The position numbers were made by a program, and so were the translations under genes. Positions 39,291-49,002 of a stretch of 64,000 nt of DNA are shown piece by piece. Under the pieces are notes generated by a model. It saw only the letters and a program-made list of their open reading frames with translations, was not told the origin of the DNA and ran no database searches. Source of the DNA: Desulfobacteraceae bacterium (GTDB lineage: Bacteria; Desulfobacterota; Desulfobacteria; Desulfobacterales; Desulfosarcinaceae); contig QZKV01000007.1 of assembly GCA_003599575.1 (NCBI GenBank), forward strand, positions 21,538 through 85,537, in the 5' to 3' direction. How positions within the stretch are numbered: the stretch's first letter is position 1; each line of letters begins with the position of its first letter.

Positions 39291-39601
39291 TCTATCTTCC
39301 TTTGCACATGGAATGAAATGTCAGGCGCCGGCGGCAGTGCGCATCCCGCGGTATGATGACTTCACCCCACATGGTGCCTGCAAGCTAAGGCATTTTAGTG
39401 CCATGTAAAGATAAGAGAACTTGCACGACCCCTGTTGAAAAGGCCGCAAGACCGCAAGACCAGTGAAGTAATGACCACATATGGATTGCCATAGGCATCA
39501 CGGACGAATGGAGTTGGAATTGCCTTTTCACACGCCTTTGATTATGTTCTGGCCGGTACAGACGTTTGAACCGCATTTTGGTATCCGAACTTGAGCCTAC
39601 G

Positions 39602-40966
39602 ATGACCCAGGATCTATTCGAGTCCATAAACGACCCTCCGGTCGCGGAATCCAGGCCCCTGGCCGAACGCATGCGGCCGCGCAACCTGCAAGAATTTATC
39701 GGCCAATCCGAGATGGTTGGACCGGGCAGCTTGCTGGCCGAAGCCATACGCCATGACCGTATTTTCTCAATCATCTTCTGGGGCCCTCCGGGTTCAGGCA
39801 AAACCACCTTGGCCCGGATCATCGCCAAGGACAGCCGATCCTACTTTGTTCATTTTTCCGCCGTCTTGTCCGGCATGAAGGAGATCCGCGGGGTCATCGA
39901 GCAGGCCCATGAACAACTCAAATTGAACCGAAGACGAACCATTTTGTTCGTAGACGAGATTCACCGGTTCAACAAAGCCCAGCAGGATGCGTTTCTGCAG
40001 CATGTCGAAAGCGGCTTGCTGACCCTGATCGGCGCCACCACCGAGAATCCCTCCTTTGAAGTTGTGCCCGCCTTGCTTTCGCGGTGCCGCGTGATGACCC
40101 TCAAAGCCCTGACCGATGGTGACCTGGACGCCATTATCAGGCAGGCATTGGAAGATGACGAACGCGGGTTGGGACGTTATCACCTCAGCCTGGACGACGA
40201 TGCCGGCGCCCACCTGGTGCGAACATGCGACGGTGATGCACGCACGGCGTTGAACAATTTGGAAATGGCGGCCTTTTTGACCCTTGCCCGCCGCGGCCCC
40301 CCATCAGATCACAGCCGGCGGCGCATCGAACTGGACGACATCGAAAACGCCATTCAGCAAAAGGCGCTGCAATATGACAAAACAGGCGAAGAGCACTATA
40401 ACCTGATCTCCGCATTCCACAAAAGCCTGCGCGGCAGCGATCCCGATGCTGCGCTCTATTGGCTGGCGCGCATGCTCATGGCCGGCGAAGATCCTCTTTT
40501 TGTGGCCAGGCGCATGGTCCGATTCGCCTCTGAGGATATCGGCAATGCCGATCCGTATGCATTGCGATTGGCCGTGGCGGCCATGGAAGCTTTTCGCTTC
40601 ATCGGGCCTCCCGAAGGAGAACTCGCGCTGGCCCAGGCGGCCGTCTATATGGCCACCGCTGCCAAAAGCAACAGCATCTATATGGCGTTTAACAAAGTCC
40701 AGGAGGTGATTCGCAAAACCGGCACACTGCCTGTGCCCCTCCATATCCGCAACGCCCCCACCCGATTGATGAAAGAACTGGGTTATGGCCGTGATTACAA
40801 GTATGCCCACGACTATGAAGGAGGCTATGTTGCACAAGCATATCTGCCCGACCAGCTCAAAGAGCAATACTTTTATACAGCCCAGGATCGCGGCTATGAA
40901 AAACTGATCAAACAGCGCCTGGATCAATGGCGCCGTCACGCGGGCCGAAATACCAAACCGAAGTGA
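39602..40966 (+). CDS. rarA: RarA/MgsA replication-associated recombination AAA+ ATPase
   Basis: [64 protein letters not shown]. Confidence 0.95.
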
Positions 40967-41246
40967 ACCCTGAAATAAGCGCTTTGCCGGGCCGGGTTTT
41001 TTAAGAGATTACGACAAAGCTCGCCGGACGATCATAAATGCCTTGGCGGCCAAAGCGATGCGGCGCTATTATTTTTCTTCGCAGCCCTGGCATTCGGTCT
41101 CGTTTGGATTTAGTATATAAAGGCTGAACGCAGGGGTGAAAAATGCCGAGGCTACAGTGATCAGCCGCTGTGCAAAGCGGTCCATTGAGAGGATACGGCC
41201 GGGGATTCAAGCCGGAAATTATTGTCCAAACGGGAGGGAATAGAAG

Positions 41247-41870
41247 ATGTCCCAATTGATTGCCTGTAAATCCCGGGATGGCGTCGTGTTCGGCGCGGAC
41301 GGAAAAGCGGTCGATGTGGATGCCAACGGAAATCTGATCGAACTCAGGGTCGATCGTTTGCACCAGCTCTCCGATCATGCCTGCATTTTAAATGGCGGGT
41401 CTGTTGCGGGCGAATCCATGTGTCAGGCGCTCAAGCATTTTGTCGATCAGGAAAACCTTCGCAACGTCGATGATATCTACAGCGCCGCGCTGCCGTTCCT
41501 GGCCACCGAGTATGAGCGCTTCATGCGCAGGAAATGCGAAATTCAGCCCATCGATCCCATCCATCAGGTAACGTTCATTCTCGGGGGATACACTGAGTTC
41601 GATCCTGAAAAGCCGTTTCGCATGTATCTGCTGTGGACCAAGAGGAAGCTGCCCTTGCTGGACAGCGATGAGGTCGGCATCTGTTTCAGTGTCCCGCGCA
41701 TCATCAAACTGGAGCACAGTCTGCACCAGCTTGTGAAACAGGGCGCTGAACTGGATCGCATCATCAGTGTGGTGCGCCATGAGCTGGAACGATTGGCCGA
41801 GATGAACGAAGAAATCTCCGATCCCCTCTCCTACGCTTACATCTCGCAGGAAGGTTTCAAGAGACTGTAG
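41247..41870 (+). CDS. Proteasome beta-like Ntn-hydrolase family protein
   Basis: M-SQLIACKSRDGVVFGADGKAVDVDANGNLIELRVDRLHQLSDHACILNGGSVAGESMCQAL: proteasome-fold motifs (DGVVxxAD, GSVA). Confidence 0.7.
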   Translation: MSQLIACKSRDGVVFGADGKAVDVDANGNLIELRVDRLHQLSDHACILNGGSVAGESMCQALKHFVDQENLRNVDDIYSAALPFLATEYERFMRRKCEIQPIDPIHQVTFILGGYTEFDPEKPFRMYLLWTKRKLPLLDSDEVGICFSVPRIIKLEHSLHQLVKQGAELDRIISVVRHELERLAEMNEEISDPLSYAYISQEGFKRL

Positions 41871-41984
41871 GATCGTCCACTCGGATGATTCGTTTATTCG
41901 CGATGCTTCGCTGGGAACCGGTTCTTTTTGGCTTGAACTGGCGCCACCGGCGATCCAAAAAGGGTTTTAGTTTGCCCTATCTAC

Positions 41985-42749
41985 TTACCTCAGCATCACC
42001 CCGCCATCAATGTTTATGGCTGCGCCGACGAGATAGTCTCCTGCCGGCGAGGCTAATAAGACAGCTAAGCCAGCTATTTCCTTTGGATTTCCGATCCGGC
42101 GAGCAGGGATCCTTTTTTTGACCTCTTGTTCGACTTTGGATGCGAGACCCGGGTTCAGGTCGGTGTCGAAGTAGCCTGGACAGATGGCGTTGACCTGGAT
42201 ATTGTATTTGATCAATTCCAGGGCCATGACCTTGGTCAGCAACAAAGCTCCGCCTTTGCTAGCGCAGTAATCGCCGCTGTGGGGCACTGGCATGAAAGAA
42301 GCCACTGAGGTGACATTGATGATCTTGCCGTTCTTCCGCTTGATCATCTCGCGGGCTGCCGCCCGCGAGCAATTGAAGATGCCGGTCAGATTGATCGATA
42401 GCGTCTGCTGCCACTCTTCATCGGGGATATCAACCATAGCCTTGGCACTGCCTGTGATGCCGGCGTTGTTAGCCAGAATATCCACTTGGCCAAATTTTTC
42501 GACCGTGGCAGCGATCATATTCTCTGCATCTTCGACCCGGCTGACGTCGCATCGGACGGGCATAGTCTTGACTCCGAAATCTCGGTTAATTTCGGCTGCG
42601 GCCTTCTCACAGCCCTCGAAGTTCCTGGCGGCGATTATGAGATTTGCCCCTGCGCTGGCCAAGCCTTCAGCGATGCCACGGCCGATGCCCTTGTATCCGC
42701 CAGTGACCACGGCCACTTTCCCCTTAAGATCAAAAATATTCAGAGTCAT
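41985..42749 (-). CDS. SDR-family oxidoreductase
   Basis: VTGGYKGIGRGIAEGL, NNAG, YCASKGG catalytic motif. Confidence 0.93.
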   Translation of the reverse strand: MTLNIFDLKGKVAVVTGGYKGIGRGIAEGLASAGANLIIAARNFEGCEKAAAEINRDFGVKTMPVRCDVSRVEDAENMIAATVEKFGQVDILANNAGITGSAKAMVDIPDEEWQQTLSINLTGIFNCSRAAAREMIKRKNGKIINVTSVASFMPVPHSGDYCASKGGALLLTKVMALELIKYNIQVNAICPGYFDTDLNPGLASKVEQEVKKRIPARRIGNPKEIAGLAVLLASPAGDYLVGAAINIDGGVMLR

Positions 42750-42763
42750 GTTTCTTCCTCCCG

Positions 42764-43390
42764 TTATTTATACAAATGAACGCGACAGGGTTGCAGGCCG
42801 ACTTTTTTAGGGAGTTCTGTAATAAAAAGCGGTTTGCCGTTTGTCTCATCCGCTATCAGGTTCTGGAAATGGCAGTGGGCGCAATACACAGGGAAATCTG
42901 GCCTGCCAAAAGCCATGGCCTGGGGTTTCTCTATGCGCAGAAATCCGTCTGACCGGTCGTAAAGCCCCTGCCTGATTTGCCGTCCTCCGCTAGGGCATTC
43001 ATCCACCGTGATAGTGAATTTTTCTTCATCCTCAGTGATCTTTAGTGAACCCAGGTGGCCCCTCAGTCCGGCTGCAAGGATTTGAAGCTTTCGGCCAGGG
43101 GACTTGCCGGAGTACCGCTTGGACAGGAGTTTGGTGAAACCCTTACGAACCGTCTCATCAAAAGCTTCATACAGAACCTCATCATCGAAGCGCCGGCCGA
43201 TGAAGGACAAGAGGTCGGTGACCCAGTCCAGATACAGATCATGCATGGACAAAAACTCGCTATACATCCGCTGAGTTAATTTTTTGGCCGCTTCCTGGTC
43301 GCCTGTTTCGATGGCGGCCATAGTCAGATCCAGAGTCCTTTGTCCCATAGCCTTCAGTTCATCATCCGTGAAATATCTTTCATTGCCCAT
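42764..43390 (-). CDS. Hypothetical protein with C-terminal Cys/His motifs
   Basis: 209-aa ORF in operon; VDECPSGGR and VYCAHCHFQN. Confidence 0.7.
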   Translation of the reverse strand: MGNERYFTDDELKAMGQRTLDLTMAAIETGDQEAAKKLTQRMYSEFLSMHDLYLDWVTDLLSFIGRRFDDEVLYEAFDETVRKGFTKLLSKRYSGKSPGRKLQILAAGLRGHLGSLKITEDEEKFTITVDECPSGGRQIRQGLYDRSDGFLRIEKPQAMAFGRPDFPVYCAHCHFQNLIADETNGKPLFITELPKKVGLQPCRVHLYK

Positions 43391-43432
43391 CTTTCTTCCT
43401 TTCGCTTTGAATCGGGCTGTTAGGCACCGGCT

Positions 43433-44818
43433 CTATTTATGAATTGCCATTTTGCCCGCATCCAGCGCGGCTTCCATCATGGACTCCGAGACGGTTGGAT
43501 GGGCGTGGACGGCTGCAGCCAGATCTTCGAAGCCGGCCTCCAGGGACATTGCGACCACGGCTTCAGCGATTAATTCGGTGGCGTGCGGGCCGACCATGGT
43601 CACTCCCACGATCTCGCCGTACTTAGGTTCAGCTACAATTTTGATCAGGCCTTCGTTTTCGTTCAGGATGGCGGCTTTGCCATTGGCCATCAAAGGAAAT
43701 CGGCCAATCTTGAGCTTATCGCCATAGTGTGCCTTGGCTTCTGCTTCGGTCAAACCCGCGCTGGCCAGTTCCGGGGCGGTATAGACGCACCTGGGGATAG
43801 GGCGGTAATTCATTGGGCGACCGATCCCGCAAGCATTCTCGACAGCGCAGATCCCTTCTGCCATAGCGGCGTGGGCCAGCATGATCCCGCCGGTCACATC
43901 GCCTATGGCATAAATGCCGGGCACGCCGGTTTCCATTCGTTCGTTCACTACAATATGGTTTTTATCGGTCAAAGGGATACCCAAGCTTTCCAAGCCCAAA
44001 TTGCTTGTACACGGTTTGCGACCCGTGGCTACAAGAACCAGATCGGCCGATCGGATGTGGTCTTTTCCGTTCAGACCGAAGACCACCAGCTTGCCCCCTT
44101 TGCCGTCTGCTTCGATTCTTTTAACACCGGCCCCAGTGATGAGTTCCAGACCCTCTTTCTCCAGAAGATCAGACAGCACCCGGACAGTTTCATTGTCCTC
44201 GGCCGGAAGAATCGAACCCATCTGTTCGATGACCGTGATTTTGACCCCCATCCGGTGCATGAGCTGAGCGAATTCGATCCCAATCACACCGCCACCGATA
44301 ATGACCAGACGAGACGGCAATTGTTCCAGAGCCAATGCTTCGTTGCTGCTAATCACACCTTTTTGATCAAAACTCTCCGTCGGAAAGCCGGCTGGTACCG
44401 AACCCGTGGCCAAGATTATTTTATCCGCTGTTATTTTTTCTCCAGTCTTCAAGACCGAGATCGTCTGGGCATTGGACAGGGTCGCTTCACCCTTGATCAC
44501 TTTGATGCGGTTTTTTTTCATCAAAAGTCCCACGCCACTGACCAGGCGCTTGACGACGGCATCTTTGCGTTCGAGCACGGCCGGGTAATTCAAACCTACT
44601 TGCGGAATCTTGATCCCGAAAGCTTGGCTGTTTCGGGCCTGCCAATAAACATTGGCCGAGTGAATCAAGGCCTTGGTTGGGATGCAGCCCCGGTTGGTAC
44701 AGGTGCCGCCCAGTTGATCCTTTTCGAACAAGGTCACCTCGTTTTTTAACTGTGCGGCCCGGATGGCCGCCACATATCCACCGGGTCCTCCGCCGATAAT
44801 GGCTATCTTCTGACTCAT
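43433..44818 (-). CDS. lpdA: Dihydrolipoyl dehydrogenase (E3)
   Basis: GGTCTNRGCIPTK redox-active disulfide; FAD/NAD GxGxxG motifs; HAHPTVSE C-terminus. Confidence 0.95.
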   Translation of the reverse strand: MSQKIAIIGGGPGGYVAAIRAAQLKNEVTLFEKDQLGGTCTNRGCIPTKALIHSANVYWQARNSQAFGIKIPQVGLNYPAVLERKDAVVKRLVSGVGLLMKKNRIKVIKGEATLSNAQTISVLKTGEKITADKIILATGSVPAGFPTESFDQKGVISSNEALALEQLPSRLVIIGGGVIGIEFAQLMHRMGVKITVIEQMGSILPAEDNETVRVLSDLLEKEGLELITGAGVKRIEADGKGGKLVVFGLNGKDHIRSADLVLVATGRKPCTSNLGLESLGIPLTDKNHIVVNERMETGVPGIYAIGDVTGGIMLAHAAMAEGICAVENACGIGRPMNYRPIPRCVYTAPELASAGLTEAEAKAHYGDKLKIGRFPLMANGKAAILNENEGLIKIVAEPKYGEIVGVTMVGPHATELIAEAVVAMSLEAGFEDLAAAVHAHPTVSESMMEAALDAGKMAIHK

Positions 44819-44842
44819 GACCGTTTTCCTTACAACTGCTGT

Positions 44843-46075
44843 TCATAGAAGCAACAGGGGTTCCTCGATCAGCTCCACTACCCGATTGAGAAACTGGGCC
44901 GCAATAAAACCATCCAGAATCCGGTGATCGATGCCCAATGTGATATTCAGGGAAAGGACGGGTAGCACCTGATTATCCACCACGCAAGGCCGTTCCTTGA
45001 TGGCTCCCAGTGCGATGATGCTCGCTTCCGGCGGATTGATGATGGGATAGCCGTATTCAATTCCGGCCATACCCAAGTTGGTGATGGTTATGGTGCTCCC
45101 GGTCAGTTCGTCCAGTCCCAATTTGCCATCACGGCCACGGGTAACTAGGTCCAATCGGATGCGGGCGATTTCGGCCATCGATTTCAAGTTGGCCTGGCGG
45201 ATAACCGGGACAATCAATCCATCCTTGACGCTGGTGGCCAGCCCTACATTGATTTCATCCAGAATCTCGATTCCATCTGTCGTCCAGTAGGAATTCACAT
45301 CTGGAAAATTCTCCAGAGCGATAGCTACACATTTGATAATCAAATCGGTATAAGTCAGCCTCAGCCCTGTTTCTCTCTCGATAACCGGCAGCATTCGTGC
45401 CCTGGCTTCGTTCAGCCTGACAGCGTTGGCCTGTTTGGACATCCAAAAATGGGGTGTCTGGAAGCTTTCGGACATCCGCCGGGCAATGGTGCGTCGCATG
45501 CCTCCGGGCTTGATCAGACGGCTTCTTAGCGGGCCGGCCTCCGTCTGGGCCGCAGGAGCGGCGGCTGGTTTTTGAATTTCTTTAACCGCCTGCAGAACGT
45601 CTTTTTTAACGATGCGGCCCTGAGGTCCGGTGCCTTTTATCCGGGTGATATCCAGGCCGTGTCCTTTAACAATTTTTTTTGCTACTGGGGAGATTTTAAT
45701 TCTCCCCTTGATTTCTTGGCTCAAGCCTCCGGATTCGAACCTGGTTGTCACGCCCGCTGTTTCATCGGGCGTAGATTGAACTTGAATGTCCAATCTCGGG
45801 GACGTGGTCTCAGCGGCCGTTTGGGTCAGAGTCTCGCCGGGCTGGACGATATAAGCCAGCGTTACCCCGATGGATCTTGTTTCCCCCGCCGGGACCAAAA
45901 TTTTTCCCAGTAGTCCGGATTCCGGCGCTTCAATTTCATAGGTCACTTTTTCCGTTTCGATCACGAGGAGAATCTCGCCCTTCTCGACTCGATCGCCTTC
46001 GTTTTTTATCCATTCAATGATCTGCCCCTCAACCATGGTAAGGCCGAGACGGGGCATGATTATCGCTGTGGCCAT
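44843..46075 (-). CDS. 2-oxo acid / acetoin dehydrogenase E2 (lipoyl acyltransferase)
   Basis: MPRLGLTMVEGQIIEWIKNEGD...ETEKVTYEIEAPESG lipoyl domain; LGIDHRILDGFIAAQFL catalytic motif. Confidence 0.95.
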   Translation of the reverse strand: MATAIIMPRLGLTMVEGQIIEWIKNEGDRVEKGEILLVIETEKVTYEIEAPESGLLGKILVPAGETRSIGVTLAYIVQPGETLTQTAAETTSPRLDIQVQSTPDETAGVTTRFESGGLSQEIKGRIKISPVAKKIVKGHGLDITRIKGTGPQGRIVKKDVLQAVKEIQKPAAAPAAQTEAGPLRSRLIKPGGMRRTIARRMSESFQTPHFWMSKQANAVRLNEARARMLPVIERETGLRLTYTDLIIKCVAIALENFPDVNSYWTTDGIEILDEINVGLATSVKDGLIVPVIRQANLKSMAEIARIRLDLVTRGRDGKLGLDELTGSTITITNLGMAGIEYGYPIINPPEASIIALGAIKERPCVVDNQVLPVLSLNITLGIDHRILDGFIAAQFLNRVVELIEEPLLLL

Positions 46076-46119
46076 TCAGTTGCCTCCATTTTTTCCGATC
46101 ATACCGGTTTTGGCAGGAC

Positions 46120-46905
46120 TTACTTGCCCTGCCAATTCGGTTTTCGCTTTTCCAAAAAGGCACTGGTTCCTTCCCGGGCGTCTTTGGTCGTGGCAGCAAT
46201 GATGGCGCCGTACTGGCAATATTCCATCGCCCCCTCCAGGGGCATGTCCAGGCCAACCTGAATAGCGCGCTTGATCAGGGCCACCGCGGACGGAGCGTTT
46301 TTGATGATGCGCTGGGCGAGTTCCTCGGCCGCGGCCATAACCTGATCCGAAGGAACCACTTTGAGAACCAAGCCCATTCGCAAGGCTTCCTGGGCATCAA
46401 TGGGGTCTCCGGTGAGTTCAATGTAAAGGGCAAGCTGTTTGCCGATCAGACGACCAAGCCTGGCCGTTGCCCCGGCTCCGGGCATAATGCCAAGCCCCAC
46501 TTCAGGCAGACCGATCCTGGCTTTTTCGGACATGATTCTGAAATCGCAGGCTGTAGCTATTTCCAAGCCGCCACCGAAAGCGTAACCGTTGATGGCCGCG
46601 ATAACCGGTATGCCCAAACGTTCCAGGCGTAAATTGAACCTGGTTAGTTTATCGTGGATGCGGAAGAATTCGTAAGGCGCTTCCAGACCCTTGTTGATCA
46701 TGTTGATGTCGCCGCCCGAGACAAAAGCCTTGCCAGCCCCGGTCAGGATGAGCGCCCCAAGTTCCTCATCGGCTTCAATCCTGGTCAGAACATCCTCCAG
46801 TTCTAAAATCATCTGTTCGTTTACGCCGTTGAGCACTTCAGGCCGATTGAAAATGATATAGGCAATTTTGCCTTTTTTCTCATTAATGATCGTCTGGTAG
46901 TCCAT
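46120..46905 (-). CDS. Enoyl-CoA hydratase/isomerase
   Basis: AAINGYAFGGGLEIATACDFRIMSEKARIGLPEVGLGIMPGAGATARLGRLIG. Confidence 0.95.
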   Translation of the reverse strand: MDYQTIINEKKGKIAYIIFNRPEVLNGVNEQMILELEDVLTRIEADEELGALILTGAGKAFVSGGDINMINKGLEAPYEFFRIHDKLTRFNLRLERLGIPVIAAINGYAFGGGLEIATACDFRIMSEKARIGLPEVGLGIMPGAGATARLGRLIGKQLALYIELTGDPIDAQEALRMGLVLKVVPSDQVMAAAEELAQRIIKNAPSAVALIKRAIQVGLDMPLEGAMEYCQYGAIIAATTKDAREGTSAFLEKRKPNWQGK

Positions 46906-46927
46906 TTCACTTTTCTCCCTTGACCGG

Positions 46928-47992
46928 TCAGAGTTCTGGCGAAACCAAAATCTTGCAATGCTGTAATTTCCTCTCGCTGGTCAGTTCCTTAATCCCCTTT
47001 TCCAGGGCATCTTCCACTTTGACCTTTGAACTGATCATCATGGGATCGCATTTGACCTTGCCATTGCCCAAAAAAGCTATGGCCGCGGGGAACTCGTCTA
47101 CGTAACCCTGGCTGGTGATGATCGACTTTTCCCGCAAGAAAAGATTGCTGAAAGGAAATTTGAACGGTTCGGTCATCAGGCCCACTTCTACGATGGTCCC
47201 GCCCCGGCCGCAGACCGTATCGGCCAGCAGCAACGCTTCACCGGGCCCGGCGCACTCGAAGACCATATCAGCGCGCCGGCCGCTCGTGAGGGAGGCGATG
47301 ATCTTGCCTGGATTGCCTTCCTTGGGGTTGATGACTTCTGTAGCCCCCAGTTCCTTGGCCAACCGCATCCGCTCGGGGAGGAATTCGAAAATGAAGACAT
47401 CACTGGCACCGCAGGCAAGGGCCGACTGCATCGTCAGGAGCCCGATAGGGCCTGCACCGATCACGGCGACGGCCGCTCCCGGCTCCATCCGGCCGCGCTT
47501 GACCGCGTGAACGCAGCAGGCCAGGGGTTCGACAAAAGAACCGGCCTCGTAGCTCACGCTGTCAGGGAGTTTGTAGACGTTGTCGACGGGCGCGACCACA
47601 TAATCGGCGAAAGCCCCGTCGGCGGCGCCTCCGATGCTGCCCAACATTTCGCATTGGATATGCTGGCCCTTTTTGCAGTAGTAACATTGATAACAGGGCA
47701 TGGTCGGCCGGACGGTCACCCGGTCCCCCACCTTGAATTGAGCAACATTATCGCCCATGGCCACAATCTCTCCGGAGAATTCATGGCCACCAGTGATGGG
47801 CGCCTGCCGCCCCGTCAGGGGGTGAGGCCTTTTGACCGGGATCAGGATCGGACCGGCCAAGTATTCATGAACGTCGGAACCGCAGATCCCGCACCATTTA
47901 ACCTTTATTTTGACTTGCTTTGGGCCGGGTGCAGGTTCGGGAATATCTTCCAGCCGGATGTCTTTGCCTCCATAAAACCGCAAAGCTTTCAT
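46928..47992 (-). CDS. Zn-dependent alcohol dehydrogenase, 2,3-butanediol dehydrogenase-like
   Basis: MKALRFYGGKDIRLEDIPEPAPGPKQVKIKVKWCGICGSDVHEYLAGPILIPVKRPHPLTGRQAPITGGHEFSGEIV resembles BdhA-type enzymes. Confidence 0.88.
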   Translation of the reverse strand: MKALRFYGGKDIRLEDIPEPAPGPKQVKIKVKWCGICGSDVHEYLAGPILIPVKRPHPLTGRQAPITGGHEFSGEIVAMGDNVAQFKVGDRVTVRPTMPCYQCYYCKKGQHIQCEMLGSIGGAADGAFADYVVAPVDNVYKLPDSVSYEAGSFVEPLACCVHAVKRGRMEPGAAVAVIGAGPIGLLTMQSALACGASDVFIFEFLPERMRLAKELGATEVINPKEGNPGKIIASLTSGRRADMVFECAGPGEALLLADTVCGRGGTIVEVGLMTEPFKFPFSNLFLREKSIITSQGYVDEFPAAIAFLGNGKVKCDPMMISSKVKVEDALEKGIKELTSERKLQHCKILVSPEL

Positions 47993-48033
47993 ATCTTCAC
48001 CTGTCGCTTTCTTTGGTTTACAGTAAACTCTGA

Positions 48034-49002
48034 TCAGCCCAGTTCCTTGACGGCGGCTATGATGTCCGCCTCCTGGGGCAGGACGGCGCTTTCCATGGCC
48101 GGTCCCCATGGAATGGGTGAAAAGGCGGCTCCTACTCGCTTGATCGGGGCATCCAAGCTGTCGAAGGCCGCTTCCATAACACTGGAAGCAATTTCCGCCC
48201 CGAAGCCACCGATTTTGACCGCTTCATGGGCGATGACCAGTTTATTTGTCTTGGCCACTGATGTGAGGATGGTGTCCAGATCCAGAGGCAAGAGCGTCCT
48301 GAGGTCAATGATCTCTGCATCAATGCCCTGTTCGGCCAGTTTTTCTGCGGCTGCCGCGACCTTATAATAGAGCTGACCCCATGTCACTATGGTCACATCC
48401 GAACCAGGCCTTTTGATATCCGCTTTGCCCAAGGGAAGGGTATATTCTTCTTCGGGTACGTTGCTCTTTACCCGCAGCATTTTGTGCTCGATAAAAAGGA
48501 CCGGGTTCTGGTCCCTGATCGAAGACTTGAGCAGCCCCTTTACATCGTAGGGCGTGCTGGGATAGACCACCTTCAACCCCGGCGTATGACAGAACCAGGC
48601 TTCCAGGCTTTGGGAATGATGAGGCCCGGCGCTGAGTCCACCCCCGCACTGGGTCAAAAAAACAATGGGGACCTTGAACTGCCCCCCGAATATGTATCTC
48701 ATTTTAGCAGCCGAGTTGACCACGGCGTCCATGGCAAGGGTGATGAAATCCATGAACATGATCTCGGCCACCGGAACCAGCCCGGCCATGGCTGCGCCGG
48801 TGGCCACTCCGGCGATGGCCGATTCACTTATGGGCGTATCAATGATTCGTTTTCCTCCAAATTCTTGAAACAATCCTCTCGTGGCGCTGAAACTGCCCCC
48901 GGACAAGCCGACGTCTTCACCGATGATGATCACTCTTTCATCCATGGACAGTTCTTCCCGCAAGGCTTCGTTGATGGCTCTGACATAATTGAGTTCTCTC
49001 AT
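48034..49002 (-). CDS. Acetoin/2-oxoacid dehydrogenase E1 beta
   Basis: MRELNYVRAINEALREELSMDERVIIIGEDVGLSGGSFSATRGLFQEFG... Confidence 0.95.
   Translation of the reverse strand: MRELNYVRAINEALREELSMDERVIIIGEDVGLSGGSFSATRGLFQEFGGKRIIDTPISESAIAGVATGAAMAGLVPVAEIMFMDFITLAMDAVVNSAAKMRYIFGGQFKVPIVFLTQCGGGLSAGPHHSQSLEAWFCHTPGLKVVYPSTPYDVKGLLKSSIRDQNPVLFIEHKMLRVKSNVPEEEYTLPLGKADIKRPGSDVTIVTWGQLYYKVAAAAEKLAEQGIDAEIIDLRTLLPLDLDTILTSVAKTNKLVIAHEAVKIGGFGAEIASSVMEAAFDSLDAPIKRVGAAFSPIPWGPAMESAVLPQEADIIAAVKELG

Follow-up and report, generated by a model that had tools for sequence, protein, structure and literature searches.

The window, a stretch of 64,000 nucleotides from a Desulfobacteraceae bacterium, contains an open reading frame on its forward strand that begins with ATG and encodes 207 amino acids (Table 1). 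The protein reads MSQLIACKSRDGVVFGADGKAV...VDRLHQL...NGGSVAGE. Its ATG is preceded by a Shine-Dalgarno-like motif, and comparable G-rich sites occur upstream of most relatives. A weak terminator-like stem-loop follows the stop codon, and the consensus scan found four such sites in the region against 1.2 expected. Orthologues are present in 9 of the 11 genomes of the genus, with exactly one match each, and none of the 19 other sampled genomes of the window's taxonomic family carries a member. Desulfatitalea orthologues with finite dS have dN values of 0.13-0.19 against dS values of 1.4-2.1; dS is near saturation, and the resulting dN/dS of roughly 0.06-0.1 is thus approximate. The reading frame is a genuine gene and is maintained by purifying selection. 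Neither phage nor plasmid collections contain a match to the protein, and an origin from such elements was discarded on this basis.

Table 1. Features of the gene, its protein and its surroundings (positions within the window; "with Met" means that the initiator is counted)
Feature	Position	Strand	Basis or remark
RarA (AAA+ ATPase) gene	39566-40966		upstream, 280 bp gap to the gene under study
Shine-Dalgarno-like GGGAGGG	41232..41238	+	sequence; 8 nt before ATG
Open reading frame, 207 aa	41247-41870	+	ATG start; stop included in coordinates
Ser1, mature N-terminus after Met removal, nucleophile position	41250..41252	+	alignment
Asp17	41298..41300	+	Asp or Glu in 75/75 family members
Arg, mature position 33 by raw count (R34 with Met)	41346..41348	+	non-catalytic, variable column
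Arg36 mature (R37 with Met), true Lys33 equivalent	41355..41357	+	alignment
Gly, oxyanion Gly47 equivalent (G51 with Met, second Gly of GGSVA)	41397..41399	+	invariant 75/75
Loop after helix H2, pore-loop position, with P101 and D103-P104	41538..41567	+	alignment, model
Pro150-Arg151, just before helix H3	41694..41699	+	invariant 75/75, all three clades
Terminator-like stem-loop, weak	41870..41891	+	consensus scan; directly after stop
Gene run with dehydrogenase components	41985-48109	-	
208 aa reading frame	42767-43390	-	no Pfam match

In sequence searches the protein scores 14.9 bits against the Pfam Proteasome model (PF00227), below the cut-off of 22.4. No NCBIfam model matches it, and a search of the PDB with the protein alone gives no significant match. 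Only 3 of 48 family members reach the Pfam model at E <= 0.01. A profile built from the family matches 20S proteasome beta chains from residue 1, with a best E of 9.8e-5. The kinship with 20S beta chains is therefore recovered by the family profile, but only below threshold by the single sequence. The seven nearest relatives have 71-83% identity to the window protein; four of them are entries named Desulfatitalea, one of these being the isolate Desulfatitalea alkaliphila.

Of 395 genomes searched in the window's phylum, 45 gave hits; in one of these (G227) the match is broken and was not confirmed by the profile search. Besides the window's own, 57 members were extracted. These counts refer to that phylum, and sampling across other phyla is uneven. 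A scan of named genomes found 23 loci, mainly in Desulfatitalea, other Desulfobacterales, Syntrophaceae, and Desulfohalobiaceae. Unclassified Deltaproteobacteria MAGs are also among the matches, and candidate division B38 is represented by one MAG. The scan used an alignment of the window's own clade, as the family-wide alignment is too diverse, and its names therefore apply to relatives in that clade only.

The window protein is predicted to have a proteasome-beta Ntn fold. The AlphaFold2 model built on the family alignment has pLDDT 93.7 and pTM 0.91, and its strands and four helices (H1-H4) follow the proteasome order without insertions. Foldseek finds 599 matches in the PDB at E <= 0.001; the 50 best are all 20S proteasome, and the first has an E of 1.5e-10 and a TM of about 0.6. 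The preliminary description of a divergent, stand-alone, proteasome-beta-like protein with an Ntn fold thus agrees with the prediction, with the family tree, and with a genome that has no second member besides HslV. The model has no C-terminal helix H5, and the chain ends after a strand at 203-206. The pore-loop segment lies between helix 74-97 and strand 108-115, and Cys97 comes just before it. There is no propeptide, and removal of Met would directly expose residue 1.

When compared to 20S proteasome beta, the window protein has the same fold, Asp17, oxyanion Gly, and H1-H4, but it lacks the propeptide, Lys33, and H5, and has a Pro-Arg motif before H3. HslV is likewise bacterial and has an Ntn fold. 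However, HslV is a threonine protease that works with HslU, and the genome of the window has a separate HslV gene, whose product contains TTI...GDGQ. In a profile-to-sequence comparison, HslV and the family reach only E 0.012 with a probability of 3.6%. Anbu resembles the window family in its Ntn fold, its bacterial range, and its group II neighbourhood in the 2021 cluster map of these proteins. In contrast, Anbu has a long C-terminal H5 that the window protein is predicted to lack. The PDB chain 5lox (labelled 'Peptidase'), which is presumably Anbu, matches the family profile with an E of only 0.031. An identity with either HslV or Anbu was rejected on these grounds and by the missing NCBIfam match, and the suggestion of an Anbu/HslV-like relative is not supported.

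Alignment of 75 members separates three clades: T with 29 members, S with 10, and A with 36, the last including the window protein. All 29 T members have Thr1, Asp17, and Lys33, and all 10 S members have Ser1, Asp17, and Lys33. In the A clade the Lys33 column holds Arg in 30 members, Trp in 2, Pro in 2, and Ser and Cys in 1 each. Lys is therefore found in 39/39 members of the T and S clades and in 0/36 of the A clade. Residue 1 in the A clade is Ser in 23, Gly in 8, Thr in 2, and Ala, Asn, or Pro in 1 each, while residue 17 is Asp in 31 and Glu in 5. A careful tree of 69 rows, from which six truncated or very long rows were left out, separates the A clade from all other rows by a branch supported at 100/99. 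The S clade has support of 100/100, and the T clade is also split off by one branch, with the weak support of 64/7. The clade labels come from a first quick tree and the catalytic residues, and hence are not independent of the sequences. Nevertheless, the A clade cannot be the product of one column out of 209.

The S clade consists of L036, L037, L038, L040, L043, L044, L045, L048, L087, and L088, with the pattern MSQL..ADRRV..KL. With a complete triad, its members would be serine-type Ntn enzymes. Among the sampled genomes, an S member never occurs together with an A or T member. A further group, L058-L064, comprises A-clade members with Gly1 (MGQ...) and thus no nucleophile at residue 1. In 7/7 of their genomes a Thr1/Lys33 paralogue is also present.

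The sequence features named in the preliminary description are all present. Ser is residue 1 after Met removal, Asp17 falls in the catalytic column of the family, and the GGSVA motif carries the oxyanion Gly. The replacement of Lys33 by Arg is also real, but the residue concerned is Arg36 in mature numbering. Residue 33 by that count, also an Arg, stands in a variable column (T, K, S, Q, N, A, and others). Which column corresponds to Lys33 was set by alignment to the relatives and to a mammalian proteasome beta type-2 chain. Thermoplasma beta was also aligned for this purpose, and its alignment is weak. The Thr/Ser1-Asp/Glu17-Lys33 triad is thus incomplete: Ser1 and Asp17 are in place, and Arg occupies the Lys33 column. 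All Desulfatitalea-type relatives share Ser1, Asp17, and the oxyanion Gly with the window protein. Conservation of the pair Ser1/Asp17 across the clade is only partial; residue 17 is always acidic, but residue 1 is Ser in only 23 of the 36 members. Glu156 is invariant in all 75 members. Residues near-invariant within the A clade, numbered with Met, are Cys97, Asp103-Pro104, and Trp130 (34/36); the T and S clades mostly have other residues at C97, D103, and P104.

Fuchs, Alva and Lupas (2021; PMC8665760) describe 22 proteasome-like families, including PHD, the "Proteasome Homolog of Deltaproteobacteria", which is uncharacterised. The main text of that paper reports no function, AAA+ partner, or telling genomic context for PHD. 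The window family is most likely PHD (representative OGP72033.1), which is the best fit because both the distribution and the compact architecture agree with the published description. Within the uneven sampling of other phyla, the window family appears to share the range of PHD, the former Deltaproteobacteria. Both lack a propeptide and an AAA+ partner, are uncharacterised, and have a proteasome-like core free of the large insertions known from PMI or PHI. The compactness of PHD is taken from the main text, which lists no large S3/S4, H2, or H3/H4 insertions for it; the secondary structure of the window model likewise has none. The label 'unrecognised' in the preliminary description was therefore mostly wrong. 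The conserved core of the 2021 homologues is described as harbouring the Thr1/Ser1-Asp17-Lys33 triad (PMC8665760). The window clade does not have Lys33, and the main text contains no description of a Lys33-less clade. By comparison with that main text, the Lys33-less and probably inactive branch, which stands alone in its genus, is provisionally considered new.

A T member occurs in 14 of the 19 genomes with an A member, against 15 of the 376 genomes without one. Counted by genus, T is found in 8/12 with A and in 12/234 without (Fisher p 1.7e-7, uncorrected for shared ancestry). Co-occurrence is more frequent than expected, and shared ancestry inflates the figure. The A and T genes are adjacent in none of the genomes examined. 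The genome of the window has no second family member even at E <= 10, and HslV, encoded on another contig, is the sole protein there to match Pfam Proteasome. No T paralogue was found in the genus genomes searched, nor in the A genomes G057, G106, G215, and G299. The T paralogue is absent from these five A-clade genomes and from the rest of the genus, and therefore an obligate partnership of the alpha/beta type is excluded there.

In the yeast beta5 subunit, K33R gives an inactive site, as Arg33 cannot hydrogen-bond Asp17, while T1S retains activity (PMC4792962). Therefore Arg, and not Ser, is the predicted lesion in the window protein. Because Lys33 is lost clade-wide and the yeast K33R site is inactive, the A clade is probably a pseudoenzyme lineage. 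The freedom at both the Lys33 column and residue 1 across the clade argues that the function shared by its members would not be hydrolysis. The preferred reading, with a rough probability of 0.55, is that the window protein is a catalytically dead or nearly dead subunit of PHD type. The preliminary description had mentioned a pseudoenzyme as one option, and the predicted fold, the family tree, and the clade-wide loss of Lys33 favour it. Membership of the Ntn superfamily by descent stands; an active enzyme does not follow from it. That the window protein and the relatives closest to it retain Ser1 and Asp17 counts against the preferred reading, as a fully dead enzyme would not need them.

These retained residues, with the oxyanion Gly, are what an active Ser1 Ntn enzyme would have, in which Arg36, the Ser1 alpha-amine, or an ordered water replaces Lys33. 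Such a protein would be a slow or highly specific amidase or a connectase-like transferase rather than a general protease. Most A-clade members keep a basic Arg in the column, and yeast K33A with the propeptide in trans has some water-mediated activity, reduced by about 83% (PMC4792962). Connectase, moreover, is a case of a monomeric homologue acting as a ligase (PMC8665760, main text). However, yeast K33R is inactive, and other A-clade members have Gly, Ala, Asn, or Pro at residue 1, or Trp, Pro, Ser, or Cys in the Lys33 column, so that an active enzyme is possible but distinctly the less probable reading. An ordinary divergent Thr/Ser peptidase of HslV, Anbu, or 20S type, served by a housekeeping ATPase, would be in line with the predicted fold and with the full triad of the sister clades T and S. 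It is disfavoured and unlikely, given the absence of Lys33, of H5, and of any NCBIfam match, the separate HslV gene, and the lack of a conserved neighbour of proteasomal-ATPase type.

The non-random co-occurrence of A and T members would suit a dead subunit that works only within a mixed barrel shared with a Thr1/Lys33 paralogue, like that of alpha and beta. The genomes without a T paralogue and the unlinked positions of the A and T genes speak against it. As the sole explanation it is quite improbable, and for Desulfatitalea it is refuted by genome content. Degenerate catalytic columns across the A clade might also mark a non-functional remnant under relaxed selection, but the low dN relative to dS, the intact reading frames, the presence in most of the genus, and the clade-specific invariant residues mostly refute it and leave it very improbable.

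Under the preferred reading of a dead or nearly dead subunit, a duplicated proteasome-like protein may have dropped catalysis and retained its ring-building and substrate-contact surfaces, as proteasome alpha subunits did. By analogy, 20S alpha is also a non-catalytic paralogue of a proteasome-like enzyme; the window protein differs in having no N-terminal gating helix and in its origin in a different family. Where a Thr1/Asp17/Lys33 paralogue coexists, as in most lineages, the A protein would act alongside it, perhaps as a partner, ring, or gate without catalysis. Desulfatitalea lacks such a paralogue, and there the protein would stand alone as a binding or scaffolding particle. C97, P101, and D103-P104 around the pore loop, together with W130, are mostly absent in the catalytic clades and could form the working surface. 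That PHD underwent an independent split into catalytic and dead subunits, mostly in a mixed particle and with the dead one alone in Desulfatitalea, is a tentative and rather doubtful extension. If true, it would be a second, independent case of an active/inactive paralogue split among proteasome-like proteins, and a test bed for the origin of the alpha/beta division of labour. A dead homologue that stands alone would mean that the proteasome fold was retained for a purpose other than cutting. The finding supplies concrete candidates for a protein family without known function.

As stated in the preliminary description, none of the immediate neighbours examined was identified as a proteasomal ATPase gene, and no gene neighbourhood is conserved across lineages. 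Neighbour clustering shows RarA next to the gene in 7/8 loci of the Desulfatitalea group and only there; an operon with RarA was not taken as functional, in view of this restriction and the intergenic gap. Some Syntrophaceae-type A members have GlgC, an AMP-ligase, and a histone-deacetylase-like gene nearby, and a true GlgC is found close to two A-clade genes of f18 (G215, G299). In five Syntrophaceae-type loci (L050, L053, L055, L104, and L108) the histone-deacetylase-like gene (PF00850) adjoins the A-clade gene in convergent orientation. Six f17 T-clade members (L071, L072, L074, L075, L078, and L080) have MalQ, a 4-alpha-glucanotransferase (PF02446), directly upstream on the same strand, and a same-strand GH13/debranching-like gene is likewise found directly upstream of the f17 T-clade paralogue. 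A lineage-limited link of the f17 T clade to glycogen metabolism is possible. Such a link was set aside for the family, as it is limited to a lineage and the nucleotidyltransferases beside the Gly1 members stay well short of the GlgC cut-off. Four of L058-L064 have a HlyD-type membrane-fusion gene and then an ABC transporter ATPase downstream.

On the reverse strand of the window, the 208 aa reading frame contains a 'YCAHCHF' stretch and is flanked by short-chain dehydrogenase and dihydrolipoamide-dehydrogenase-like genes. The run in Table 1 comprises a short-chain dehydrogenase, lipoyl E3 and E2 of a 2-oxoacid dehydrogenase, an enoyl-CoA hydratase, and a zinc alcohol dehydrogenase, and looks like a catabolic gene cluster.
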